Source: an uncultured Glaciecola sp. (lineage in GTDB: Bacteria > Pseudomonadota > Gammaproteobacteria > Enterobacterales > Alteromonadaceae). From it: DNA of 64,000 nucleotides. Position numbers and translations under genes: made by a program. Position 1 is the first letter of the stretch, and each line of letters starts with the position of its first letter. Location of the stretch: assembly GCA_947496235.1 (NCBI GenBank), contig CANMCE010000003.1, positions 124,001 to 188,000 of the forward strand, read 5' to 3'. The notes under the pieces are model-generated. The model was not told the DNA's origin and did not search any database. It saw only the letters and a program-made list of their open reading frames with translations. Of this stretch, positions 5,679 through 61,307 are shown in pieces.

Positions 5679-7265
5679 ATGAAGATTAATGTCGCTAAAT
5701 ATGTTGCATGGACCGGACTTGCTGTTGCTATTTCAAGTGCATCTTCTGCACTAGCAAACTCGTTACCGGAACATCAAACAAGCAATGCATGGTATACCTC
5801 AGCAAATGAACTGTTGATGCAAAAACTGGATGTAAATAATAGCTTTAAAGCTAAAAATGTCATCTTGTTCGTTGGTGACGGAATGGGCATTTCTACCCTG
5901 ACCGCAGCTCGAATTCTCGAAGGTCAGCAACAGGATATGATGGGTGAAGAAAACCTATTGAGTTTTGAAACCTTTCCTTATTCTGCATTGGTGAAAACGT
6001 ATAACGTTGACGCGCAAACCCCTGATTCTGCAGGTACTATGACAGCTATGATGTCTGGACTTAAAACAGACGTTGGCGTTATTGGTGTTGATGAAGACAT
6101 TGTTAGAGGTGATTGCGCTAGCGTCGCTGGTAACGAGGTAACTTCAGCACTTGAATTAGCTGAAATTAAAGGCTTATCCACCGGCATTATTTCTACTGCT
6201 CGTATAACTCACGCAACGCCAGCAGCGACCTACGCGAAATCTGCAGATCGTAACTGGGAAGATATTTCAGACATGCCAGAAGGTACTACTTGTACTGATA
6301 TCGCTGATCAGTTAGTTAACTTTGAAGCCAATTTAGAAGCACGTTTTACCGGCGTTGATGTAGATGGTATTGAAGTTGTATTTGGTGGTGGTCGTCGTCA
6401 TTTCTTACCGCGCGATGAAGCATTTAATAGCGCTGATGCTGTTAGTTCTGTTGAAGGTGATCGCACTGATAATCGAGACCTTACAGCAGAATGGCAAACT
6501 ACCTACCCACAAGGTTCTTATGTAATGGATCAGACTGGATTTGATGCGATTGATCCAGCATCTACCGAAAGAGTGTTCGGGTTATTCAATGAAAGTCATA
6601 TGCAATATGAAGCTGATCGCGCAAATGACATTGCAGGTGAGCCTTCACTTACTGAAATGACATCAAAAGCCATTGATATTCTAGATAACAATGAAAAAGG
6701 CTTTTTCTTAATGGTTGAATCTGGTCGTATTGACCACGGCCACCATGCGGGTAGCGCATATGGCGCACTGACTGACACCATTGAGTTATCTAATGCCGTA
6801 CGTGCAGCAATGGAAATGACAAACCCAGAAGAAACCTTGATTATCGTTACTGCTGACCACGGTCACGTATTCACTATCGCAGGTTATCCAAAACGTGGTA
6901 ATCCAATTTTAGGCAAAGTAGTAAATGTAGGTAGTGAAGAACCAGCAACTGCAGCTGACGGCCTTGCTTACACTACCCTTGGTTACACTAACGGTTTAGG
7001 CATGATGGATTTAGGCGACGAAACTGATGCCGATGCTTCTTATGCTTTTGCACCTAATACTGGTCGCAAAGATATTACCCAAATCGATACTACTACTAGC
7101 GGCTATCATCAAGAAGCCCTTGTGCCATTAGGTTCTGAAACTCACTCAGGTGAAGATATCAGTCTACATGCCATGGGACCTGGCGCTCAATTAGCACAAG
7201 GTAACATTGAACAGAACATGGTCTTTCATCTAATAGACCAAGCGCTTAACTTGACTAGCAACTAA
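5679..7265 (+). CDS. Secreted or periplasmic alkaline phosphatase
   Basis: A 528-aa PhoA-superfamily phosphomonoesterase that releases phosphate from organic esters outside the cytoplasm. A Sec signal peptide covers residues 1 to about 26 (ending SSALA). The catalytic features are visible: GDGMG (Asp67), PDSAGT with nucleophile Ser117, ESGRIDHGHH (Glu347, Asp352, His356), TADHGH (Asp393, His394) and SETHSGED (His489), which together make two zinc sites and one magnesium site. The family usually reads DSAAT; here it is DSAGT. It lies 15 bp before a paralogue that keeps nearly all these blocks, so the two are probably co-transcribed. Phosphate-starvation control is likely from the function, but the PHO-box match upstream is weak. 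Confidence 0.95.
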   Translation: MKINVAKYVAWTGLAVAISSASSALANSLPEHQTSNAWYTSANELLMQKLDVNNSFKAKNVILFVGDGMGISTLTAARILEGQQQDMMGEENLLSFETFPYSALVKTYNVDAQTPDSAGTMTAMMSGLKTDVGVIGVDEDIVRGDCASVAGNEVTSALELAEIKGLSTGIISTARITHATPAATYAKSADRNWEDISDMPEGTTCTDIADQLVNFEANLEARFTGVDVDGIEVVFGGGRRHFLPRDEAFNSADAVSSVEGDRTDNRDLTAEWQTTYPQGSYVMDQTGFDAIDPASTERVFGLFNESHMQYEADRANDIAGEPSLTEMTSKAIDILDNNEKGFFLMVESGRIDHGHHAGSAYGALTDTIELSNAVRAAMEMTNPEETLIIVTADHGHVFTIAGYPKRGNPILGKVVNVGSEEPATAADGLAYTTLGYTNGLGMMDLGDETDADASYAFAPNTGRKDITQIDTTTSGYHQEALVPLGSETHSGEDISLHAMGPGAQLAQGNIEQNMVFHLIDQALNLTSN

Positions 7266-7280
7266 TAAGGAATTAGAACA

Positions 7281-9191
7281 ATGAAAAAATTGCAACTTAC
7301 ATTGCTAGCGACCGCAATAATCGGTCTATCTGGATGTCTTGATGACGGTGACGATGGTGCACAAGGTGTAAGAGGTCAAACAGGCCCTCAAGGGGAATCT
7401 GGCCTAAATTCACTTATCCGTCAAACTCAACTAGCTGTTGGTAATGCAAATTGCCCAAATGGCGGTGTTCAAATTGACTCAGGTTTAGATACTGACGGTG
7501 ATGGTTCACTAGCGGATTCTGAAGTAAATGAAACAAGCTATGCTTGTCAGCCTGGCGTAACCTCGGTGAATTCTAGCGAGTTACTCACTAACTTAAACAA
7601 TCCTTGGTTTGTTGAAGCTCAACAAGAAATCGCTGAAGCGAGAACTACTTGGTTACAAGCGACTAGCACTAGTCAAACTGGTAATGCAACTACAGCTCAA
7701 GTCACCAGTTATAAAACTAATTCAGCCGCTGAAAAACAAGCCTTAGTAGATAGCCTAAAAGGTCAAGCCAAAAACGTCATCCTATTTGTAGGTGATGGCA
7801 TGGGTGTTTCTACTATCACTTCTGCCAGAATTTTAGATGGTCAAATGGCAGGCAAAGACGGTGAAGAACATCAACTTTCATTCGATAAATTCCCGTTTGC
7901 CGGCTTAGCGAAAACTTATAACGTTGACGCTCAAACGCCTGATTCTGCGGGTACAATGACAGCTATGATGTCTGGGCTTAAAACAGATGTGGGCGTTATT
8001 GGTGTTGATGAAGATATCGTCCGTGGTGACTGCTCCACAGTGACAGGAAATGAATTAGCTACTGCGTTAGAACTTGCCGAATTACAAGGTAAGTCTACTG
8101 GTATCATTTCTACAGCGCGTATAACTCACGCAACGCCAGCAGCAACCTACGCAAAATCAGCTGATCGCAACTGGGAAGATGTATCAGACATGCCAACAGC
8201 AGCTGTTGATGCAGGCTGTAAAGATATTGCGGACCAGTTAGTGAATTTTGAAGCTTATTTAGAATCTCGCGTAGCTGATTCAGATGTAGATGGCATCGAA
8301 GTAGTATTTGGTGGTGGTCGTCGTCACTTCTTACCAAGAGACGCCGCATTTAACAGCCCTGACGCTGTTAGCTCTGTAGAAGGTGATCGTACTGACAACA
8401 GAGACCTGACTGCCGAATGGATGGCGCAATATCCCGCAGGTCAATACGTATATGATCAAGCAGGATTTGATGCCATTAACACTGAAACTGTAGAGCGTGT
8501 ATTTGGTTTATTTAACGAATCACACATGCAGTACGAAGCGGATCGCGGTAATGACATTGCCGGCGAACCAAGCATTGCTGAAATGACAGCTACCGCTATC
8601 AATATTCTAGATAACAACGAAGATGGCTTTTTCTTAATGGTTGAATCTGGCCGTATTGACCACGCTCACCATGCTGGAAGTGCATATGGTGCTTTAACTG
8701 ACACTATTGCACTTGCAGAAGCCGTAGATGTTGCAGACAAAATGACCGATGACAGCGATACGCTTATCATAGTGACTGCCGACCACGGTCATGTGTTTAC
8801 CATTGCTGGATATCCTAAGCGCGGTAACCCAATCTTAGGTAAAGTAGTAAGTGTCGGAAGCGAAGAGCCAGCAACCGATGCAGACGGCATGCCTTACACT
8901 ACACTTGGCTATACCAATGGTTTGGGCTATAGAAACCTAGGTGACATGGTGTTTGATGCCGATGCAAGCTATGCAGCAGCGCCGGATGCAGGTCGTAAAG
9001 ACTTAACTGACGTTAACACTGAGTCTCCTGGATTCCACCAAGAAAGCTTAGTACCACTTACATCTGAAACCCACTCAGGTGAAGACATCGGTATTTTTGC
9101 CAAAGGTCCAGGTGCATTCTTGGTCACTGGTACTAATGAGCAAAACATGGTGTTCCACATCATGAACTTCGCTGGTGATTTAAATAAATAA
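7281..9191 (+). CDS. Lipoprotein alkaline phosphatase with collagen-like stalk
   Basis: A 636-aa paralogue of the preceding phosphatase. Its N-terminus differs: a lipoprotein signal with lipobox LSGC (Cys19), a short Gly-X-Y run (residues about 28-42), then a cysteine-containing segment with GLDTDGDGSLADSEVN that resembles a small domain found behind collagen-like repeats in bacterial lipoproteins. The catalytic blocks GDGMG, DSAGT, ESGRIDHAHH, TADHGH and SETHSGED are all retained. The protein is presumably tethered to the outer membrane, while its neighbour is soluble. The two genes arose by tandem duplication: DNA as well as protein is close to identical through the nucleophile block. A strong hairpin terminator follows. 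Confidence 0.94.
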   Translation: MKKLQLTLLATAIIGLSGCLDDGDDGAQGVRGQTGPQGESGLNSLIRQTQLAVGNANCPNGGVQIDSGLDTDGDGSLADSEVNETSYACQPGVTSVNSSELLTNLNNPWFVEAQQEIAEARTTWLQATSTSQTGNATTAQVTSYKTNSAAEKQALVDSLKGQAKNVILFVGDGMGVSTITSARILDGQMAGKDGEEHQLSFDKFPFAGLAKTYNVDAQTPDSAGTMTAMMSGLKTDVGVIGVDEDIVRGDCSTVTGNELATALELAELQGKSTGIISTARITHATPAATYAKSADRNWEDVSDMPTAAVDAGCKDIADQLVNFEAYLESRVADSDVDGIEVVFGGGRRHFLPRDAAFNSPDAVSSVEGDRTDNRDLTAEWMAQYPAGQYVYDQAGFDAINTETVERVFGLFNESHMQYEADRGNDIAGEPSIAEMTATAINILDNNEDGFFLMVESGRIDHAHHAGSAYGALTDTIALAEAVDVADKMTDDSDTLIIVTADHGHVFTIAGYPKRGNPILGKVVSVGSEEPATDADGMPYTTLGYTNGLGYRNLGDMVFDADASYAAAPDAGRKDLTDVNTESPGFHQESLVPLTSETHSGEDIGIFAKGPGAFLVTGTNEQNMVFHIMNFAGDLNK

Positions 9192-27656: not shown

Positions 27657-27704
27657 CCCCTTCTTCGTCATTTCGTCACCTCCTACGACGTTCCGACCCG
27701 CACT

Positions 27705-27771
27705 CGTCATTCCGACGAAAGTCGGAATCTGGTGAATGTTTCTGGAGATGCTGATATTCATCAGCATGACG
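27705..27771 (+). repeat. 67-bp double-hairpin element, copy 1
   Basis: Starts CGTCAT and ends ATGACG. Hairpin 1 is ATTCCGAC, loop GAAA, GTCGGAAT. Hairpin 2 is ATGCTGAT, loop ATTC, ATCAGCAT. A non-paired linker of about 22 bp lies between them. It is the first of six full copies in the window, all 67 bp and all in the same orientation. An eight-base spacer leads to copy 2. Confidence 0.92.
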
Positions 27772-27779
27772 TCTTGCTT

Positions 27780-27846
27780 CGTCATTCCGACGAAAGTCGG
27801 AATCTGGTGGACGTTTCCGGAGATACTGATATTCATCAGCATGACG
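27780..27846 (+). repeat. 67-bp double-hairpin element, copy 2
   Basis: The same structure as copy 1: CGTCAT and ATGACG ends, hairpin 1 ATTCCGAC with GTCGGAAT, and hairpin 2 with one change (ATACTGAT) that weakens its stem. It directly abuts a tandem run of half-elements. Confidence 0.92.
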
Positions 27847-27924
27847 AGAAACTTTTAGGAGGTGCTGATTTTCATCAGCATGACGAGAAACTTTTAGGAG
27901 GTGCTGATTTTCATCAGCATGACG
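27847..27924 (+). repeat. Two 39-bp tandem copies of the element's right half
   Basis: Two identical 39-bp units (27847-27885 and 27886-27924) start AGAAACTTTTAGGAGG and end in the right hairpin (GTGCTGAT, loop TTTC, ATCAGCAT) with GACG. The remaining gap to 28040 holds degenerate fragments. Open reading frames that cross the array on both strands are repeat artefacts. Confidence 0.9.
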
Positions 27925-28040
27925 GGGGAGGCATGAGCATAACGGTGAGAGTGTAAGCATGACGAATGGGCAAAGGTTTTTTGAATATGTTAGGCTATAA
28001 ATCACGCAGCGCTGATTAAAAAATCATCAAGGAAGATAAA

Positions 28041-29780
28041 ATGAATAAACTTTTATGTCAGGTATGCTTACTCTCAGTAATTCTCTATTCTTTTACCGCG
28101 TTTAATTTAGCAAATGCCGAAGAAAATCAAGTAAAACCCTTTGCTAAAGGCATTCGAGGTTTTTGGGTAACTCGAATTAAAGCGAACCAAAACATTGCAG
28201 ATAACACTATTATCAACCTTATGTCGTTGAAAATTCCACGACAAGCGAATAATCCTCCGTATAAACAACAATCAAAATTTGGATCTGTAAATCTAAATTC
28301 ACAAGGTAAAACCTGCACGTTTGAAGTTGTTAGTGCTATTGCCGACAGTAATAACGTTAAACTTGCAGTTTCGCTCTCCCCTTTTTATCAAGTGAACAAA
28401 AAAGGAAAAATAAAAGGTAATGAAAAAGCATTGGAACGATGCCGTGCTATTGGCCTTGATGGAATTGATTTTTATGCAGTAAAACCAAAGCTTTTGGGCG
28501 GCATAATAAGGTTCGAAAATGGTGATGTTGTGCACACCTTGTTTGAACCTCAAGGCGGGGCTTCGCTAAAGTTAGGTAGTGTCAATATAGTCGCAAAGAA
28601 CGCTGAATTATTTTCAGTTAATATACCTGAACCAGCTATAGAGGACGTTAATTCAAATAAGATAAATCCCAAGGATGATAAACTAACAAAGACAAAACCG
28701 CCGAAAAATTCTCAACAATCTGCCCCCAAAGTCGAATCAACCGAAGAGCCGTTTTACAAAGACAACGCATTTACACTTAAACACCCTAACTTCAACACCT
28801 TTTACATACCAGTATATGACGGCATTCCAGCGTTAGTCAGCAACGGGCTGTTATCGACGGGTTCTAAGAAATCACCTTCGTATCAAGAAAATTTCTCTCC
28901 ATCAAATCAACAAGACTGGCAACAATATTACACAGCGCTACGGGACTTTCTTGATATTGTTTCCATGATTGATAACGAACAATTAGTAAGGTGGTATAAG
29001 ACTTCCCCCGGAGAAGGGAATAGCGGTGCATCCACCTATGAAATTGCCTTAGACAAACGCCGTGCTGATTGGATGCTCAATATCATCACCAAGGCATTTT
29101 TAACCGCAGCAAAAATTGACCATATTCATAAGTACTTTTGCCCTGAAATGGATAAGAAAAGTGTGCAATTTACTCGTAGTCGTTGTAGCACTTTCCAAGG
29201 AGATATCAATGAACAAAAACGTTTACTAAGCGTATTTTTAAACGAAACAATTCCTGAATTAACGCAATATGCAGAGCCCTTAAAACAGGTTAACAAAGTT
29301 TCGGTTGTAAACTGGGCTTTAATATCAAATTACGATTCTGAACAACAAGGTTTTGTCGTTAGCCTATTCAGTGACTTTACCTTCACACCTTATGGTGCCG
29401 TTGTTACTGAATCTGCTAGCGATTTTGCACGGAAATTCAAAGAAAGTTATCCAGTATTCAAAACCATGTACATTGGATCGAAAGATCGTTTATCAGGCGC
29501 AGGTTCTACAGGCGCATTATTACCTATGGATATAGACGCAGCTCAAACGTTTTTAAAACAGGCTGACGCAAACCAAAAACGTCTAGCAGCTATAATGACA
29601 ATTGAGCTTATCCCAGAAAACATAGATGATTACGCAAAACGAATTCTCAACGACAAAAAACTCACATCAAGAGAATATAGATATAAATTAGTTTCAGAGA
29701 ATGTTGAGCTATTCCAGCCTACAAAACAAGGCATGGTTCCAGTTCATACATTCCCGGTGGATGTTGAGCCTGTTAAGTGA
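28041..29780 (+). CDS. Exported protein of unknown function
   Basis: A 579-aa protein with a Sec signal (residues 1-26, ending NLANA). The N-terminal part (about 30-200) has FWVTRIKANQ and a beta-rich stretch. A low-complexity Lys/Pro/Asp linker follows at about 205-240, and a mostly helical C-terminal part (about 250-575) contains several cysteines. I do not recognise a family and see no catalytic motif. AAGGAAG lies eight bases before the ATG. It is flanked on both sides by repeat arrays, so it probably forms its own transcription unit. Confidence 0.75.
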   Translation: MNKLLCQVCLLSVILYSFTAFNLANAEENQVKPFAKGIRGFWVTRIKANQNIADNTIINLMSLKIPRQANNPPYKQQSKFGSVNLNSQGKTCTFEVVSAIADSNNVKLAVSLSPFYQVNKKGKIKGNEKALERCRAIGLDGIDFYAVKPKLLGGIIRFENGDVVHTLFEPQGGASLKLGSVNIVAKNAELFSVNIPEPAIEDVNSNKINPKDDKLTKTKPPKNSQQSAPKVESTEEPFYKDNAFTLKHPNFNTFYIPVYDGIPALVSNGLLSTGSKKSPSYQENFSPSNQQDWQQYYTALRDFLDIVSMIDNEQLVRWYKTSPGEGNSGASTYEIALDKRRADWMLNIITKAFLTAAKIDHIHKYFCPEMDKKSVQFTRSRCSTFQGDINEQKRLLSVFLNETIPELTQYAEPLKQVNKVSVVNWALISNYDSEQQGFVVSLFSDFTFTPYGAVVTESASDFARKFKESYPVFKTMYIGSKDRLSGAGSTGALLPMDIDAAQTFLKQADANQKRLAAIMTIELIPENIDDYAKRILNDKKLTSREYRYKLVSENVELFQPTKQGMVPVHTFPVDVEPVK

Positions 29781-29824
29781 TTAATTTCGGCGTCATTCGT
29801 CCCCTCTAGTCATTCCGACCGTCC

Positions 29825-29900
29825 CTCGTCATTCGGCCCCTCCCTCGTCATTCCGACCCCACCTCGTCATTCCGCCCCTCCCTCGTCATTCCGCCCCTCC
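29825..29900 (+). repeat. Four 19-bp tandem units derived from the element's left end
   Basis: Four units of 19 bp (beginning at 29825, 29844, 29863 and 29882) each start CTCGTCATTC, then G or C, G, and a C-rich tail. They repeat the left terminus of the 67-bp element and run into its full copy at 29903. A related unit precedes them at about 29805. Confidence 0.88.
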
Positions 29901-29902
29901 CT

Positions 29903-29969
29903 CGTCATTCCGACGAAAGTCGGAATCTCCCAGATATTTCCGGAGGTGCTGATTTCCATCAGCATGACG
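29903..29969 (+). repeat. 67-bp double-hairpin element, copy 3
   Basis: Has CGTCAT and ATGACG ends, hairpin 1 ATTCCGAC with GTCGGAAT, and hairpin 2 GTGCTGAT with ATCAGCAT around TTCC. The eight-base spacer TGTAGCTT follows and then a broken left end (CGTCATTCAGACC). The array lies between convergent genes. Confidence 0.92.
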
Positions 29970-30013
29970 TGTAGCTTCGTCATTCAGACCCACAAGCTTT
30001 ACTAACATTAGAA

Positions 30014-31054
30014 TTAAAACTGCGTTACGACTGTTACTCCAGGAGAACTTGCTTTATCCAGTGAGGTAAGAGCTAAGATAGATTCCTCAAGAGAAATACA
30101 ACGACTTAACAGTTTTTCTGGAGCAAGTTTTCCTGAAAGAATCATGTTTAACATTGCGTCATATCTATACGCTTGCATTCCGTGACTACCAAGAATCATT
30201 AATTCATGGGCAACAACTCTATCCATAGGAATCGGCGGGGTTGATTGATCTGCCAATAAAAGTCCAACTTGAATATGACGCCCTAAACGTCTAAGCGATT
30301 TAACCGAATTGACTGCTGTTATCGGATGACCAAGTGCGTCCAGTGAAACATGTGCTCCACCTTGGCTAATTTCGTGAATAGCTTCAACTACATTATCAAC
30401 TTTGTTTGCATTAATCGTTGCAACCGCTCCAAAACTCTCCGCCAGCTTTAATGCTTCTTCTGACAAATCAACAGCAATTACGTTTGCCCCTATAGCTGTC
30501 GCTATCATAATTGCAGAGAGCCCTACGCCACCACATCCGTGAACACTAACCCACTGCCCAGCAGAAACCTTACCTTGATCAACTACTGCGCGGAAAGAGG
30601 TAGCAAAACGGCAACCCAAGCTAGCAGCAGTCGTAGATGCCATGTTATCTGGCAAGGCAATCAGATTTACATCAGCATGATCTATAGAAACAAACTCAGC
30701 AAATGAGCCCCAGTGGGTAAAACCCGGCTGCGTCTGAATTGCACAAACTTGATGGTTACCAGAGGCGCAATCACTACAACTACCACAAGCACTTATAAAC
30801 GGAGATGTAACGCGATCGCCAACTTTGAATGTTCGGACATTTTTACCAACAGCTTCAACTACGCCAGCAAATTCATGACCGGGAACATGAGGCAATACTA
30901 TGTCTGGATCATGCCCTTTCCAACCATGCCAATCACTGCGACAAACGCCAGTAGCTTCCACTTTTATTACAACACCATCAATTTTAGGAGAAGGGTCATC
31001 TACCTGCATAATCTTTGGCAACTCTCCAAAATTTTCAAATACTACAGCTCTCAT
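30014..31054 (-). CDS. Zinc-dependent alcohol dehydrogenase (medium-chain)
   Basis: A 346-aa medium-chain dehydrogenase that oxidises an alcohol with NAD(P). Catalytic zinc ligands are Cys38 and His60-Glu61 (PGHEFAG). Structural zinc ligands are Cys90, Cys93, Cys96 and Cys104. The Rossmann motif is [11 protein letters not shown], followed by [11 protein letters not shown], where the acidic residue after the second strand suggests NAD(H). The exact substrate is unknown; the family includes ethanol, aldehyde and sugar-alcohol enzymes. The gene is divergent from an Lrp/AsnC regulator with a perfect palindrome between them, so it is probably a target of that regulator. Confidence 0.93.
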
Positions 31055-31147
31055 TAATACCCACCTTTCAAAACCATTAGTTTATTCATTTTAGTTTACA
31101 GAATTGACTTGAAATTACTTTTCCATTTTCTGTCATTTGCGCTACAT

Positions 31148-31168
31148 TTATGCAAGCATCTTGCATAA
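31148..31168. promoter_or_regulatory. Perfect palindrome, candidate operator of the Lrp-type regulator
   Basis: TTATGCAAG, CAT, CTTGCATAA is a perfect 9-bp inverted repeat with a 3-bp centre. It lies 28 bp before the regulator start and 94 bp before the dehydrogenase start. Lrp/AsnC proteins bind dyad sites of about this size, so the regulator likely binds here and controls itself and the dehydrogenase. Confidence 0.6.
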
Positions 31169-31196
31169 TTACCATGACTTTTAAAGGAATATTTAC

Positions 31197-31661
31197 TTGA
31201 AAAACCTAGATAAAAAAGACATTGTTATTTTACAAAAACTACAATCCGACGGTCGATTATCTAATGCAAAACTTGCAGCAGATCTTTCTATTAGCGAAGC
31301 AGCTTGCTGGCGACGAATCAAAAGCATGGAGAAGGAAGGGTATATAAAGGGGTATCAGGCCAATCTTGATCGCAGCAAACTAGGGTTTGGCGTTATCGCT
31401 TTTGTTCAGATAACTTATGTGGAGCATGGTATCGAAACTACGAAGCAGTTTGAAAAAGTAATTCAAGATTCTCCGAACGTTCTGTTCTGTCACAATACAA
31501 CGGGTGATGCAGACTTTCTATTGCAAGTTGTTGCAAAAGACCTCGATGACTACAGTAGGTTTGTCGAACATGTTTTAAGGAAGCTAAAAGGCGTCTCATC
31601 TATTAGATCCAGTCTATCTTTGAGGGAAGTTACTTCAACTACTAGGCTTCCAATAAATTAA
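31197..31661 (+). CDS. Lrp/AsnC-family transcriptional regulator
   Basis: A 154-aa one-domain-plus-ligand regulator. Residues 3-55 form the winged helix-turn-helix (LDKKDIVILQKL, then SNAKLAADLSISEAACWRR). Residues about 65-145 form the RAM ligand-binding beta domain (GDADFLLQVVAKDLDDYSRF). The start is a TTG; it is favoured because AAAGGA sits eight bases before it and no ATG is available at the family start. It is divergent from the alcohol dehydrogenase, which suggests local control. The ligand may be an amino acid. Confidence 0.92.
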   Translation: MKNLDKKDIVILQKLQSDGRLSNAKLAADLSISEAACWRRIKSMEKEGYIKGYQANLDRSKLGFGVIAFVQITYVEHGIETTKQFEKVIQDSPNVLFCHNTTGDADFLLQVVAKDLDDYSRFVEHVLRKLKGVSSIRSSLSLREVTSTTRLPIN

Positions 31662-31771
31662 GTTCTAACTCATTTAACGGGTATGAGTAAAGTATCACCA
31701 TTCCGACACTACGCCGCCATTTAATCCCTCTCTAGTCATTCCGACTCACCCTCGTCATTCCGTCCCAACAT

Positions 31772-31838
31772 CGTCATTCCGACGGAGGTCGGAAACTGGT
31801 GGATGTTTTAGGAGATGCTGATATTCATCAGCATGACG
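31772..31838 (+). repeat. 67-bp double-hairpin element, copy 4
   Basis: Has CGTCAT and ATGACG ends. Hairpin 1 is TTCCGAC, loop GGAG, GTCGGAA. Hairpin 2 is ATGCTGAT, ATTC, ATCAGCAT. A 38-bp half-element (31839-31876) with the right hairpin follows, then the spacer TGTAGCTT. The wider gap 31662-32233 holds copies 4 and 5, tandem 20-mers and a structured leader. Confidence 0.92.
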
Positions 31839-31884
31839 GGAACGTTTAGGAGGTGCTGATATGCATCAGCATGACGTGTAGCTT

Positions 31885-31951
31885 TGTCATTCCGACGGAG
31901 GTCGGAAACTGGTGGATGTTTTAGGAGATGCTGATATTCATCAGCATGACG
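31885..31951 (+). repeat. 67-bp double-hairpin element, copy 5
   Basis: Identical to copy 4 except that the first base is T instead of C. Both carry the GGAG loop version of hairpin 1. The near identity of these two neighbours suggests a recent local duplication of a 67-bp element plus spacer. Confidence 0.92.
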
Positions 31952-32011
31952 GTAGAGGCATCAGCATGACGGTAGAGGCATCAGCATGACGGTAGAGGCA
32001 TTAGCATGACG
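31952..32011 (+). repeat. Three 20-bp tandem copies of the element's right terminus
   Basis: Three 20-bp units at 31952, 31972 and 31992 each read GTAGAGGCAT, then C or T, AGCATGACG. They repeat the right end of the 67-bp element and imply slippage or unequal exchange at its terminus. Confidence 0.9.
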
Positions 32012-32125
32012 GAGAGGTCATCAAGCTACCAATTTTTAAAATTTATAGATTTAGTAAAGTTTTATGTTTTTTTTGTTAGAACTCTCCACGATTCTGTGAA
32101 GTTTCTCATTGATAGTGTGCAACAA

Positions 32126-32181
32126 GCTTAAGTGGCTTATCACTTAAAACTCTCTCGACCGGGGCTATACACCACTTAAGC
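32126..32181 (+). promoter_or_regulatory. Leader with mutually exclusive hairpins
   Basis: GCTTAAGTGG at 32126-32135 can pair perfectly with CCACTTAAGC at 32172-32181. Its inner part TTAAGTG can instead pair with CACTTAA at 32141-32147. The two pairings exclude each other. The region lies 53-108 bp upstream of the ATG at 32234, in a likely 5' leader, so attenuation or operator duplication are both possible. A further GAGG and CCTC hairpin lies near 32190. Confidence 0.4.
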
Positions 32182-32233
32182 GTAATTAGAGGCAAATTGT
32201 CCTCTATCTTCAAGGAAACTAAAAGGCACTATA

Positions 32234-33433
32234 ATGAAATTAAATCGACTATGTAAACTTATAGGATCAGTGGGGTTAATGGCCATTACCCTATCTGCAA
32301 TGGCTCAGGAAGCTGATGACGATGTTCAACCTTCCCCGCCCTCTATTGGCACAGATATACCCGTCACTTATTTTGGTCCACCACCGTCATCGGTTGAGCC
32401 AGAATTGATTGGCCCCTATCAATTATTGACTGCGGGTGAATTAGACGTAGACGCAGGCACAATAACCTTGCCTCTATATGAAGGACGCCTTAAAGAAACC
32501 GGGGAATCTGTATGGTACATTATCACAGATACTACGGATAAAGATGTTGCAGAAGCATTGGGTATCAACCATGCTGCTAAGCTAGCATTTGCAGACAATT
32601 TACGTGCCGTAAGAATCGCTGAAACCAGTTTCGACGGTACTCTTCTTTTTCACTGGGGTTCAGTAGACTTTTCTCCTGAGCGTTCAGTGGTTCCTGGTAA
32701 CACTACCATTGCCGAGAATCCAGCTTTCCCGCCTGAGAGTTTTCAACCTGGCGCTATAGGCGACGAACTTTACTCTCCTTTAGTGAAAATCATAAGTTCT
32801 GGCGATCACATCTATAACGCCCCTATGGTGGCATTTAATGTGGATGCAGAACAAATTGATTTCTGTGATACCACACCTGACTACAGTTTGGTACATGACA
32901 ATGTGGCCTACATCTGTCCTTCAGAAGGCACTGTCACCATGAAACTAACCCCAGGTTTTAGTTTCGCCAAGCCGGTACTTTATATGTCTACAGACGCTAA
33001 TAATGAACTTCCAGCTGCTCTGGAAGGGGCTATTTTTGCGCCTGGCCTACGAGATGTTGAAGTAGGTGCTGATGATTCCTTGTTTAGCGCAGTAGAACGT
33101 ATTTTCGGCTTTGTTAATGGTCCTGTAAACATAGTTGAAGGACAAGTGAACCCTCAACGTCAAGGATTTGAAAGTGCTTTACGCGGTGAAGGTCCTCCAT
33201 TGAATGTATTAGGTGGTATTCCAACGGTAGCCACAGATTACAGCCCGCTTTGGGACTTAAATCTGGGCGAATGGACGCCTGAAGCTGTGAACCAGCGTTA
33301 TCCATCACGCCTAACCGAAGAGTTCCAAATCCTCGGCCTAGTTGAGCGTGGCTTCATTACCGGTCCAGGTGGCGCTTTGTATGGCTCGACTGGAAATATC
33401 ATCAACTGTCCAATCGTACACAGATTCCTGTAA
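32234..33433 (+). CDS. Exported protein, soluble member of a tandem paralogue pair
   Basis: A 399-aa secreted protein. A signal peptide ends LSAMA-QE (residue 24). The mature part is beta-rich with repeated PLYEGRL, VWYIITDTTD and LNHAAKLAF-like patterns, and ends NIINCPIVHRFL. The same blocks occur in the next gene, so the pair arose by tandem duplication. I recall similar domains of uncharacterised bacterial proteins (PLY-G, YYIVTDASD, LGVN-PKLA), but I give no domain name with confidence. AAAGG lies nine bases before the ATG. Function unknown; an envelope or secreted role is inferred from the signal. Confidence 0.8.
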   Translation: MKLNRLCKLIGSVGLMAITLSAMAQEADDDVQPSPPSIGTDIPVTYFGPPPSSVEPELIGPYQLLTAGELDVDAGTITLPLYEGRLKETGESVWYIITDTTDKDVAEALGINHAAKLAFADNLRAVRIAETSFDGTLLFHWGSVDFSPERSVVPGNTTIAENPAFPPESFQPGAIGDELYSPLVKIISSGDHIYNAPMVAFNVDAEQIDFCDTTPDYSLVHDNVAYICPSEGTVTMKLTPGFSFAKPVLYMSTDANNELPAALEGAIFAPGLRDVEVGADDSLFSAVERIFGFVNGPVNIVEGQVNPQRQGFESALRGEGPPLNVLGGIPTVATDYSPLWDLNLGEWTPEAVNQRYPSRLTEEFQILGLVERGFITGPGGALYGSTGNIINCPIVHRFL

Positions 33434-33466
33434 GCACCGATTAATTTAAATAGTAAGGATTTTAAA

Positions 33467-34939
33467 ATGAATATTAACACCTCTAAAATATTGTTGGTGA
33501 CGGCATTTACGCTGGCGTTGGCAGCTTGTGGGAGTGACGGCGACACTGGTCCTCAAGGACCTCCAGGTCCTCCTGGCCCTGCTGGTGAAGATGCACCGGT
33601 TCCTACACCTACTCCAATTACTGTGGTCGGTGGCCGACTTGCGCAGGATTTTGCAGACGCGACGGAAGCAGAAACCAATGCTTTTACGCCTAATTCAGGC
33701 GATCCTTTGGAATTCGATCCAGATGAAGATGACGTAAGACCTGGACCACCTTCTGTGGGCGCCGATATTCCGGTAACCTACTTTGGACCAGCCCCATCTT
33801 CAGTGAATCCAAATTTGATTGGCCCATTGCAACTATTGACTGCTGGTACTGTAGACACAGAGTCCGAAACTGCGACCATCACATTGCCATTATATGAAGG
33901 TCGTCTTGCTTCTGGCGGACCTCGTGACGGCCAACGTTTTTGGTATGTGGTTACCGACACGTCTGACCCTGAAAATGCCGAAGCCTTGGGTCTGAATTTC
34001 AGCGCAAAATTAGCCTTTACTGACGTCAGTGAAGAAGGTGATAGCTTTAACCCCAATGCAGTTCGACGCGGATTTTATGATCAGAATGGTACACTAATAG
34101 TTAACGGTGGTGCAGTGGACTTCTCTCCAATGAGAAATGTGAATGCCGGCTCTACTAATGACGATGGCACCAGTAACTTACTCGCTAGCTTAACTTTTGC
34201 TCCGGGTGCAGTTGGCACTGGCGTGGACGATGCAGACGGGTTTTACAGTCCATTGGTCAAAATAGAAAACGCCAGAGGTCACATTTATAACGCACCTATT
34301 GTTTCCTTTAATACTGATGAAGAAGATTTTGCGGCATACTGTGACGGCATCAGCATGGAAGAGATGCAAGAAGCACGCTCTATTTTGCATGACAAAGTTG
34401 TTAGTATCTGTCCAGGTGAGGACGGAGAACCCGGCACAGTTACCTTAGAATTGACACTAGGATTTAGCTTTGGCCGACCTGTGCTTTACTTATCTACTGA
34501 CGCTTCAGCAGAAATTGCATCTGCATTGGAAGGAGCAGTATATACTCCTGCACTTGGAAACATTCCTGTAGGCCGTGATGATTCATTGTTTAGTTCAGTG
34601 GAGCGAATTTTTGGCTTTACTAACGGCAAAACAAATCAGCAGGCTGGAGAAGTGAATCCACAAAGGCAAGGTTTCAATAGTGCAATTCTCGGTGAAGGCG
34701 GCCCATTGAATGTATTAGGCGGCATTCCAACCATTGCTACCGACTACAGCCCACTTTGGGATCTGAACTTAGGTGAGTGGACGCAAGAAGCCGTGGATAA
34801 CAACTATCACAGCAGAATGACCGAAGAATTCGCCATTCTTGGCATGGTAGAACGCGGATTTTTGACCGGCCCTGGCGGAGCACCCTACGGCTCAACCGGC
34901 ATCATTATCAACTGCCCGATTGTTCAACGTTTACTATAA
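33467..34939 (+). CDS. Lipoprotein with collagen-like stalk, paralogue of the preceding gene
   Basis: A 490-aa lipoprotein with lipobox LAAC (Cys21). Residues about 28-42 are a Gly-X-Y run (GPQGPPGPPGPAGED), followed by a proline-rich linker. The rest parallels the preceding 399-aa protein block for block (PVTYFGPAPSSV, TLPLYEGRL, FWYVVTDTSD, NPQRQGFNSA, ending NCPIVQRLL). It is 33 bp downstream, so the two are co-transcribed and are closed by a strong terminator. The layout (soluble paralogue plus anchored paralogue on a collagen-like stalk) matches the phosphatase pair at 5.7-9.2 kb. Confidence 0.85.
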   Translation: MNINTSKILLVTAFTLALAACGSDGDTGPQGPPGPPGPAGEDAPVPTPTPITVVGGRLAQDFADATEAETNAFTPNSGDPLEFDPDEDDVRPGPPSVGADIPVTYFGPAPSSVNPNLIGPLQLLTAGTVDTESETATITLPLYEGRLASGGPRDGQRFWYVVTDTSDPENAEALGLNFSAKLAFTDVSEEGDSFNPNAVRRGFYDQNGTLIVNGGAVDFSPMRNVNAGSTNDDGTSNLLASLTFAPGAVGTGVDDADGFYSPLVKIENARGHIYNAPIVSFNTDEEDFAAYCDGISMEEMQEARSILHDKVVSICPGEDGEPGTVTLELTLGFSFGRPVLYLSTDASAEIASALEGAVYTPALGNIPVGRDDSLFSSVERIFGFTNGKTNQQAGEVNPQRQGFNSAILGEGGPLNVLGGIPTIATDYSPLWDLNLGEWTQEAVDNNYHSRMTEEFAILGMVERGFLTGPGGAPYGSTGIIINCPIVQRLL

Positions 34940-34951
34940 GTAATAGTCCCA

Positions 34952-34980
34952 AACGCCGCTTGATTAAGCGGCGTTTTTTT
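34952..34980 (+). terminator. Rho-independent terminator after the lipoprotein pair
   Basis: AACGCCGCTT and AAGCGGCGTT form a perfect 10-bp stem with loop GATT, followed by a run of Ts, twelve bases past the stop codon. Confidence 0.93.
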
Positions 34981-35013
34981 AAAATGGAGACTTAGTCATT
35001 CTGAGGGTTCATT

Positions 35014-35080
35014 CGTCATTCTGACGAATGTCAGAATCTGTTGGATATTTCAGTAGATGCTGATGTACATCAGCATGACG
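35014..35080 (+). repeat. 67-bp double-hairpin element, copy 6
   Basis: Has CGTCAT and ATGACG ends. Hairpin 1 has ATTCTGAC paired with GTCAGAAT, so a C-G pair seen in the other copies has become T-A on both sides. Hairpin 2 is ATGCTGAT, GTAC, ATCAGCAT. This paired change supports selection on the stem. A broken left end precedes it at about 34994. Confidence 0.92.
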
Positions 35081-48668: not shown

Positions 48669-48851
48669 TGCTTCCTGGAATGTTTGCTTGTATACTGCAT
48701 GTTCCTGGCCGATGCTATAAACTTAGGATCTTGACTCTATTGCTTTTGCGCAAGCTCGACTTGAATCGAGAAGCCTACGGCAATGATGATATTTCCACCG
48801 TGTCCATTTCGGCGCACGGACGATAAGTATGCGGCGGCATTTTGGGGGGCG
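48669..48851 (+). ncRNA. ssrS: 6S RNA
   Basis: The DNA can fold as 6S RNA of about 183 nt. CTTCCTGGAATG at 48671-48682 pairs with CATTTTGGGGGG at 48838-48849 over 12 bp, with G-U pairs, as the closing stem. Blocks in order match the E. coli RNA: AATGTTTGC, TTCCTGGCCGAT, CTCGA with TCGAGAAGCCT, and GCGGCGGCAT at the 3' end. The large central bulge that mimics an open promoter would lie around 48715-48745 and 48790-48815. The E. coli ssrS also lies near ygfB and fau (ygfA), which fits. 6S RNA binds sigma-70 RNA polymerase in stationary phase. A 52-codon open frame (48668-48826) over the gene is an artefact. Confidence 0.9.
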
Positions 48852-48873
48852 CCCTATTTCTATGAGTAGCTAA

Positions 48874-59327: not shown

Positions 59328-61307
59328 TTACAAAATAATACGTCTAATATCTGACAGCACTTCACTTAAATGCACAGCGAATCGAGCTGCTAGTGCACCG
59401 TCTATCACTCTGTGATCGTACGACAATGATAGAGGTAACATTAGACGAGGCTGGAATTCTTTTCCATCCCACTTTGGTTTTATTTCACTCTTAGATACAC
59501 CTAATATGGCGACATCTGGGGCATTTACAATAGGCGTAAATGCAGTTCCACCAATACCACCAAGGCTTGAAATAGTGAAACAACTCCCTTGCATATCTTG
59601 AGATTTCAATTTGCCGTCTCTAGCTTTAACGCTGACTTCCATTAGTTCTTTTGAAATTTCCATTACGCCTTTTTTGTCCACATCACGAATGACAGGAACA
59701 ACAAGGCCTCCAGGAGTATCTACCGCAATACCAATATGATAATACTTCTTCTGAATCAGAGTTTCGCCAGACTCAGATAAGCTGGTATTAAAGGTCGGGT
59801 AAGCTTTTAACGCATCCGCAACCGCTTTCATCATGAACACTAATGGCGTAATTTTAACGCCCAATTTGCGTTTTTCCGCAATTTGATTCTGTTGCTTACG
59901 GAAATCTTCTAAATCCGTAATGTCGGCCTCTTCAAACTGGGTTACATGAGGAATGGTTACCCAATTGCGATGTAAGTTTGGTCCAGACAGTTTTTGAATA
60001 CGAGTTAACGGCTTCTCTTCTATCTCACCGAACTTGCTGAAATCCACCTTAGGTGGCGGAATAACCTGTAAACCGCCTTCCCCACTACCAATGCTCGCAC
60101 CCGCAGTTGCTTTAGGACGAGAAAGCTCATATTTCACATAAGACTGTACGTCTTCTTTTTGAATACGACCTTTACGACCTGAACCTGTCACTTGTGACAA
60201 ATCAACACCAAACTCTCTGGCTAAACGACGCACTGAAGGTGAAGCATGTACTTTTCCTGTTTTGCTCTTCTCGCCCGCAGATGGATGATGTGGAACAGGC
60301 GCAGAACGCTGTGGTGCTGATTGTTGCTTAGGTGCACTTTGTTCAGCTTTTGGCGCAGGCTTACTTTCTGTAGCTGGCGCTTTTTTAGGTGCAGATCCTG
60401 CTACTTCAAGGGTTAATACCAATGAACCTTCAGAAACTTTGTCCCCTACTTTTACGCTAATAGAAACAACTTTACCTTTTTCAGGTGCAGGAACATCCAT
60501 GGTTGCCTTGTCAGTTTCAAGAGTAATCAAACCATCTTCTTCGTTGATTTCATCACCTTCGCTAACAAGCACATCAATAACGTCAACTTCTCCAGCGTCA
60601 CCAATATCAGGGACTTTTACTTCAATGACTTTGCTTTCAGAAGATGCTTCTTCCTCTGCTGGAGCTGATTCTGTCGAATCAGGCGCTGATTCCGTTTGTG
60701 TATCAGAAGCACCACCAGAGGTTTCTAGAATTAACACCAAAGAACCTTCAGACACTTTATCTCCAGTTGACACTTTCAACTCGACAACTTTACCTGCTTG
60801 TGGAGCCGGAACATCCATAGTGGCTTTGTCGGTTTCTAAGGTAATAAGACCGTCTTCTTCGGCTATCGTATCACCCACACTGACCAGTACATCGATAACA
60901 TCAACCTCAGCGGCATCGCCAATGTCTGGTACTTTCACTTCAATAGTGCTTGAGCCTGATTGACTGCTTGATTCTGTTTTTGCTGGCGCACTGTCTTCCT
61001 TAGGTGCAGCTTCAGCTGCTGGTGTTTCCGCTTTGGGAGCTTCTTCTGCAGATGATTCTTCGCCACCTGCACCCACTTCAGCTTTACCAATCACGTCACC
61101 ATTTTTGATTTTGTCACCAACAGCAACTGTCAATTCTTTAATGGTGCCAGAAAATGGGATAGGAATATCCATACTGGCCTTATCGCTTTCAACCGTTAGA
61201 ATCGAATCTTCTTCATTCAACTGGTCACCTACAGCGACCAGTATCTCAATAACTTCAACTTCGTCCTCGCCCACGTCAGGCACTAGGATATCTTTAAGAT
61301 CTGCCAT
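59328..61307 (-). CDS. aceF: Pyruvate dehydrogenase E2 (dihydrolipoyl acetyltransferase)
   Basis: A 659-aa E2 with three lipoyl domains (ESDKASMDI near residue 45, ETDKATMDV near residues 160 and 265), joined by Ala/Pro/Glu-rich linkers. A peripheral subunit-binding domain (SPSVRRLAREFGVDLSQVTG) and the catalytic core follow; the active His is in LSLSYDHRVIDGALAARF. Three lipoyl domains match E. coli AceF (630 aa). Lipoyl domains 2 and 3 are nearly identical in protein. It lies 11 bp after aceE. Confidence 0.98.
   Translation of the reverse strand: MADLKDILVPDVGEDEVEVIEILVAVGDQLNEEDSILTVESDKASMDIPIPFSGTIKELTVAVGDKIKNGDVIGKAEVGAGGEESSAEEAPKAETPAAEAAPKEDSAPAKTESSSQSGSSTIEVKVPDIGDAAEVDVIDVLVSVGDTIAEEDGLITLETDKATMDVPAPQAGKVVELKVSTGDKVSEGSLVLILETSGGASDTQTESAPDSTESAPAEEEASSESKVIEVKVPDIGDAGEVDVIDVLVSEGDEINEEDGLITLETDKATMDVPAPEKGKVVSISVKVGDKVSEGSLVLTLEVAGSAPKKAPATESKPAPKAEQSAPKQQSAPQRSAPVPHHPSAGEKSKTGKVHASPSVRRLAREFGVDLSQVTGSGRKGRIQKEDVQSYVKYELSRPKATAGASIGSGEGGLQVIPPPKVDFSKFGEIEEKPLTRIQKLSGPNLHRNWVTIPHVTQFEEADITDLEDFRKQQNQIAEKRKLGVKITPLVFMMKAVADALKAYPTFNTSLSESGETLIQKKYYHIGIAVDTPGGLVVPVIRDVDKKGVMEISKELMEVSVKARDGKLKSQDMQGSCFTISSLGGIGGTAFTPIVNAPDVAILGVSKSEIKPKWDGKEFQPRLMLPLSLSYDHRVIDGALAARFAVHLSEVLSDIRRIIL

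Follow-up and report, generated by a model that had tools for sequence, protein, structure and literature searches.

The 64-kb stretch of an uncultured Glaciecola genome analyzed here (the window; contig CANMCE010000003.1, positions 124,001 to 188,000) carries six full copies of a 67-bp double-hairpin element in four adjacent intergenic gaps. Each gap lies 3′ of a plus-strand gene, the four genes encoding an AsnC/Lrp-type regulator, a DUF7482 protein, and two proteins (186 and 579 amino acids) that gave no Pfam match. The coordinates and ends assigned to the six copies in an earlier interpretation of the letters alone (the sequence-only reading) were correct; all copies have the same orientation on one strand, with a mean column identity of 92%, and the 31885 copy begins with TGTCAT. 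That reading omitted the single-hairpin and half-hairpin units that surround the full copies (Table 1), a half-hairpin being a tag plus one arm located 5′ of a tag. The 67-bp elements are well supported as members of the CGTC-1 class of repetitive extragenic palindromes (REPs), and the half-hairpins bear on how such elements may be copied.

Each 67-bp element was found to be a head-to-head pair of two different, outward-facing hairpins with a spacer between them. The hairpin unit has a constant frame in which a G-poor leader of about 9 nt and the CGTC tag are followed by an 8-bp stem beginning with AT that closes a 4-nt loop, with CT as the tail. The left stem is ATTCCGAC or ATTCTGAC, and the right stem is ATGCTGAT, on the other strand. 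The supposed terminal inverted repeats consist of both outward-facing tags plus the start of each stem, the outer 6 bp being inverted. Every copy out-folded all 200 of its own dinucleotide shuffles (z, −3.6 to −5.0). The paired stem change described for the 35014 copy is real (ATTCTGAC/GTCAGAAT versus ATTCCGAC/GTCGGAAT), and 7 of the 15 units in the window have one stem mismatch. In the 31772 and 31885 copies, the first stem has an A-A mismatch at its outermost position. These 15 units were obtained by scanning the window for CGTC or TGTC followed by a short palindrome (6- to 10-bp stem, loop of 3 to 8 nt), a pattern that itself required the tag. All of them fell within 27705-35080, compared with a mean of 1.8 tagged hairpins in 20 equally long sequences from a first-order Markov model. 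The tags were CGTC in 14 units and TGTC in one, and all 15 units had a first arm of 8 nt starting with AT and a 4-nt loop. The previously proposed 75-bp period, counted from start to start, holds for a single pair of copies, 27705/27780 (spacer TCTTGCTT); TGTAGCTT stands after the 29903 copy, leading to a truncated tag and arm, and also before the 31885 copy. A search of the window against Rfam gave no match at gathering score on the elements; its sole match was a 6S RNA gene at 48669-48852 on the plus strand (RF00013, 72 bits).

Table 1. Full, single, and half units of the element and a nearby terminator-like hairpin, in window coordinates
Feature	Position	Strand	Remarks
Full head-to-head dimer, copy 1	27705..27771	+	Stems ATTCCGAC and ATGCTGAT
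Full head-to-head dimer, copy 2	27780..27846	+	75 bp after copy 1
Full head-to-head dimer, copy 3	29903..29969	+	
Full head-to-head dimer, copy 4	31772..31838	+	
Full head-to-head dimer, copy 5	31885..31951	+	TGTC tag
Full head-to-head dimer, copy 6	35014..35080	+	Stem 1 with compensatory change
Two degenerate left half-hairpins with spacers, 5′ of copy 1	27666..27704	+	Starts 27666, 27686; steps 20 and 19; by eye
Six left half-hairpins, C-rich spacers	29791..29902	+	Starts 29791, 29808, 29827, 29846, 29865, 29884
Truncated tag-and-arm copy following copy 3 and TGTAGCTT	29978..29991	+	By eye
Two left half-hairpins with spacers, 5′ of copy 4	31734..31771	+	Starts 31734, 31753
One left half-hairpin and spacer, 20 bp 5′ of copy 6	34994..35013	+	
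Two single right hairpins, 39 bp each	27847..27924	−	
Two degenerate right half-hairpins, 20-bp step	27933..27964	−	By eye; search listed one
Single right hairpin, 38 bp	31839..31876	−	
Three right half-hairpins, 20-bp steps	31960..32011	−	
Hairpin with T run, like an intrinsic terminator, between the upstream gene and copy 6	34954..34980	+	By eye

The left halves in the window follow one another in steps of 17 to 20 bp. For the array 5′ of copy 3, one count gives six halves and the listing gives four, those at 29791 and 29827 having been read by eye. Head-to-head dimers predominate, with six full copies versus three further single right hairpins.

To follow the elements beyond the window, a covariance model of the window stem pair, R1, was used for the genome and its relatives. 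In this genome, the window stem pair was confined to this cluster, and R1 matched in 23 of 98 family genomes. The survey of the 98 genomes used stricter filters, a limited number of scored candidates, and E values up to 0.01, so some of the 75 apparently negative genomes may hold elements, and weak matches may be due to chance. The same frame with other stems was found elsewhere in the genome, at C6:6157 and C6:6259 (ATCCCGCC with ATTGCGAC), at C5:41659 (ATTACTGC with ATTCCCTT), and in a 57- to 58-bp head-to-tail array on C2 from 338778 (ATTCCGTT). The absence elsewhere in the window that was pointed out earlier is correct. Framed matches across the whole genome numbered 31 versus 13 for a reversed control pattern, and the reading of stems in framed matches covered some of the 13 genomes of the genus. 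This constant frame with widely differing stems supports the suggested resemblance to the widespread CGTCATTCC-type palindromes and to a REP doublet.

The hairpins behave as modules, as two relatives combine window hairpins with other partners. In G101, a genome of the same genus, the left hairpin of the window and its tail occur three times on one contig; tag and stem are altered at one of these sites, and at two of the three a right hairpin of another sequence follows. In G082, of another genus, the right hairpin ATGCTGAT is paired with an unrelated left hairpin at one locus (L020), whereas its partner at another (L067) is ATTCTGAC, which copy 6 has as its left stem. We rejected the strict proposition that each locus has its own stems: ATGCTGAT and ATTACCGC recur at several G082 loci, and G103 has one stem at nine sites. 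These dispersed G103 sites (L254-L262) carry ATTCCCTT, several of them inside a longer shared repeat, and the window genome matched once. In a collection of named genomes, the dimer frame with free stems was present in at least 118 stretches, with Sphingomonas, Sphingopyxis, Acidisoma, Acidocella, and Pedobacter among the matches listed. Dimers with unlike stems (distinct dimers, spacer up to 40 nt) made up 21/21 in the window's family and 15/91 in the named-genome set; like-stem dimers were 76 of the 91 and none of the 21. Two family loci adjoin other repeats: an array resembling clustered regularly interspaced short palindromic repeats (repeat GTTCACCGCCACACAGGCGGCTCAGAAA, unique spacers) ends directly at a CGTC dimer at about 1301-1500 of L022 (G018:C12), and a long run of the 7-bp repeat GGGCTAA adjoins two CGTC dimers at about 1301-1425 of L021 (G087:C1).

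Half-hairpins were surveyed in the window and in loci L001-L220, of which L001-L102 were chosen by a model, frame, or flank match and L103-L220 by their holding dimers; they are not random samples, and duplicate contexts were dropped in all surveys. The 379 distinct units obtained hold 78 different stems, and 331 have a 4-nt loop; their pairing is not independent evidence because the filter demanded an 8-bp near-palindrome. Thirty of the 379 have a nonpalindromic copy of their own tag and the start of its arm at −15 to −30. Of these copies, 24 lie at −19 to −22, while a single array accounts for the four at −27, and the remaining two are at −24 and −16. Counted out to 130 nt from the units, half copies numbered 70 on the 5′ side versus 17 on the 3′ side. 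Half-bearing loci from named genomes included, among the matches listed, Sphingomonas kyeonggiensis (L129 and L149) and Acidocella (L152). In viral contigs, a tag and arm followed by a full unit occurred in 43 distinct cases, 40 of them true halves at 14 to 37 nt (32 at 17 to 25 nt), and the mirror search for a half after a unit returned 16 distinct cases, namely, 15 second full units and one true half. A second viral pattern, counted outside the 40, gave 12 distinct cases, six of which had a palindromic unit at 19, 19, 20, 20, 25, and 38 nt.

The halves resemble the full units beyond the tag and arm. Comparing the 8-nt leaders of a half and its full unit, we found 4.25 of 8 positions to agree versus 2.59 in 2,000 permutations, none of which reached the observed value (63 pairs); for single halves, the agreement was 3.69 versus 2.63 (45 pairs). 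In register, 3.14 of 6 positions agreed, versus 2.03 to 2.14 when shifted (shifts in one direction only). Similar in-register leaders are the trace expected if leader, tag, and arm had been duplicated in tandem. Among 36 viral cases with a spacing of at most 30 nt, the half matched its full unit over exactly 12 nt, the length of tag and arm together, in 14, over 13 to 15 nt in 10, and over 9 to 11 nt in 10. The last 10 nt before the tag are G-poor also in units without halves, and a pyrimidine stands immediately 5′ of the tag in 85 to 93% of units in three sets. The leaders, the spacing and, less sharply, the end points support an origin of the halves by duplication of a unit's 5′ half.

Dimers allow halves that carry the tag (outer) to be compared with halves that do not (inner). 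Beside 34 dimers of the window's family, we counted 84 outer and 16 inner halves, with 9.6 and 7.4 in shuffled flanks. Since tag-bearing outer halves exceed tag-less inner ones, either the process itself or the survival of what it produces seems to be tag dependent, and from this excess we infer that a tag-dependent hairpin process makes the halves. On balance, we lean toward the reading that the window elements are CGTC-1-type REP heterodimers, nonautonomous and amplified locally, and that the halves are tag-dependent tandem duplications of their 5′ half. The elements would be head-to-head, intergenic, REPIN-like repeats (REP doublets forming hairpins) that lack transposition genes of their own. 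Amplification within 7.4 kb would have involved both whole dimers and single hairpins, the copies being seen and their copying deduced from them. The halves would be tandem duplicates of leader, tag, and first arm, stopping close to the hairpin tip. The likeliest route may be a processing of single-stranded hairpins, either by cleavage at the tip or by displacement of a growing 3′ end there, after which the end would reanneal about 20 nt upstream and copying would resume.

Several observations weigh against this reading. Halves are a minority feature: a 5′ half is present at 4 of 15 units in the window, at 19 of 159 in family loci including the window, and at 11 of 220 in named-genome loci. 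In a viral sample not chosen for halves and limited to units with ATTCC stems among the matches listed, a 5′ half was found at 13 of 140 units and in 5 of 86 stretches. This count includes seven stretches shared with the other viral searches; the part of the sample without such shared stretches, to which all the half-bearing ones belong, had halves at 0 of 101 units among the matches listed. End points were spread out in 45 family candidates (9 to 11 nt in 19, 12 to 16 in 20, 18 in one, and near-complete copies in five), in a search for which 9 nt was the least allowed and two of the 45 rows are one site in two overlapping loci. The viral contigs also have 16 tag-less 3′ inner halves after a unit, 10 of which are alike in sequence. 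Tag-bearing halves occur on the wrong dimer flank as well (25 versus 59 on the right flank in the window's family), partly because dimers stand in tandem. The tag-bearing excess, strong in the window's family and viral contigs, is weak in the named-genome set, where 70 dimers (80 of the 118 loci) had 67 outer halves versus 33.6 in shuffled flanks and 37 inner halves versus 24.8.

In the named-genome set, inner halves (37) are only moderately fewer than outer ones (67), which would suit ordinary replication slippage and decay where hairpins are dense, with the tag playing no part. Tandem units of 19 to 22, 38 to 39, and 75 bp are its expected products, and duplicated leaders fit it too. However, slippage predicts inner halves to be about as frequent as outer ones, and the family counts given above depart from this severalfold, so we consider it a rather unlikely explanation, if one with real points in its favor.

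On the other hand, the halves may have been kept for a function in transcription rather than left by copying. The elements would then be functional terminators or stabilizers of mRNA 3′ ends, the C-rich, G-poor half arrays serving as Rho loading stretches and the hairpins protecting the RNA 3′ end. The location of all four window gaps 3′ of a plus-strand gene is consistent with this, as is the composition of the half spacers on the tag strand (C, 0.36 to 0.58; G, 0.05 to 0.125). A same-strand gene end also precedes 19 of 24 resolved half-bearing units and 141 of 218 half-less ones (gene within 600 nt), but these proportions are close to each other and come from a crude open reading frame (ORF) caller; the count left out units inside an ORF (5 half-bearing and 111 others), units lacking a gene on the side in question (1 and 13), and those whose gene was farther away (7). 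Moreover, copy 6 sits behind the gene's own terminator-like hairpin, the right-hand arrays in gaps 1 and 3 face no converging gene, and the leader similarity favors duplication. We therefore regard a terminator function as unlikely to explain the halves.

The two inverted, tagged hairpins are an architecture shared with REPINs, so the dimers might be moved by a REP-associated tyrosine (Y1) transposase (RAYT), either present or recently lost. Our transposase search covered Y1_Tnp (PF01797) only, which was found in 55 of the 98 family genomes and once in the window's genome (C4:247526). Some element-rich genomes have it, namely, G018 (33 R1 matches), G068 (23), G087 (16), and G092 (13). However, it was present in 12 of the 23 genomes with R1 matches versus 43 of the 75 without, and was absent from the R1-rich G071 (38 matches) and G082 (34). 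Within the genus, 5 of 13 genomes have it, and none of the four with the most framed matches (G100, G103, G088, and G101) does. No CGTC hairpin was present in the 5.5 kb around C4:247526 (L060), and the tag of the window elements is CGTC, not GTAG. The RAYT partner envisaged in the sequence-only reading thus found no backing; the lack of association indicates that the elements are independent of a resident Y1/RAYT transposase, and we judge mobilization by one to be highly improbable.

That reading also offered a miniature inverted-repeat transposable element (MITE) as an alternative to a REP doublet. The doublet stands, while for the MITE the element-free gaps are too diverged for an insertion boundary to be read. 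In the gcvP 3′ region, examined over about 1.5 kb on each side in 12 relatives, no CGTC hairpin was found, L044 having one TGTC match in another frame. In the rplQ 3′ region, G101 has elements and 11 other genomes have none (260 nt, by eye), and G100 gave no match at the locus. Clean empty sites at the C6, C5, and C2 loci were rejected, the relatives' matching gaps being longer, rearranged, or matched on one side only.

Other sequences in the window are duplicated too. The neighboring DUF7482 proteins (32234-33433 and 33467-34939, plus strand) are encoded by DNA that is 75% identical over 150 nt, and a short run of GPPGPPGP occurs close to the start of the second protein. Further duplications lie at 5943-8737 (73 to 84% identity, about 1.9 kb apart) and 60466-60944 (75%, 318 bp apart).

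Half-hairpin series of this kind are found again in distant bacteria, and they may have been left behind by hairpin copying. A bolder form of the reading that we favor is that CGTC REPs are still being made by an undescribed form of tag-dependent single-strand copying without a Y1 transposase, the halves being aborted copies that halted near the tip and were laid down in tandem at the 5′ edge; this is a speculative proposal that we think improbable as it stands. If true, half arrays would record single-strand copying in distant bacterial lineages. One-sided halves ending near the tip would provide a measurable signature (a changing unit of about 19 to 22 bp, the side, and the end point) that bears on the formation and spread of CGTC REPs, whose ongoing de novo formation is presented as an open question in the paper defining the class (Di Nocera, De Gregorio, and Rocco 2013, PMC3733652). 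The window cluster, where whole, single, and half units sharing their stems stand side by side, is a natural test site.

As described in that paper, CGTC-1 REPs have a CGTC or TGTC tag, an 8-bp stem beginning with AT, and a 4-nt loop, form head-to-head dimers, are intergenic and near gene 3′ ends, and have no dedicated transposase (PMC3733652); the window elements agree in all of these respects, including, as far as Y1 transposases are concerned, the lack of an associated transposase. They differ in the tail, CT followed by G, C, or A in the window, unlike the published CCA, a mismatch that we do not take as defining because most, not all, of the 3-nt tails are reported to fit CCA (PMC3733652). 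Homodimers are said to predominate in the class, two species having heterodimers only (PMC3733652), whereas all dimers in the window's family have unlike stems. Local clusters, such as that in the window, are called rare (PMC3733652). The words half, truncated, incomplete, iteron, and partial are absent from the main text of the paper, and going by listed titles and the starts of abstracts, we found no description of half-palindrome arrays in the openly licensed literature; as far as these searches show, half-hairpins 5′ of CGTC tags have been little noted before. REPINs and bacterial interspersed mosaic elements (BIMEs) share with the window elements the nonautonomous unit of two inverted tagged hairpins, but have a GTAG tag and a RAYT partner, and the window elements have neither. 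No half-hairpins were found near 13 palindromic GTAG units, a control too small to be informative, and one viral stretch has two GTAG tag-and-arm copies 36 nt apart. A further likeness, by description only, is with dRS3 of Neisseria, a CGTC-1 element located mostly in large clusters according to the same paper (PMC3733652), which resembles the window elements in both class and clustering.

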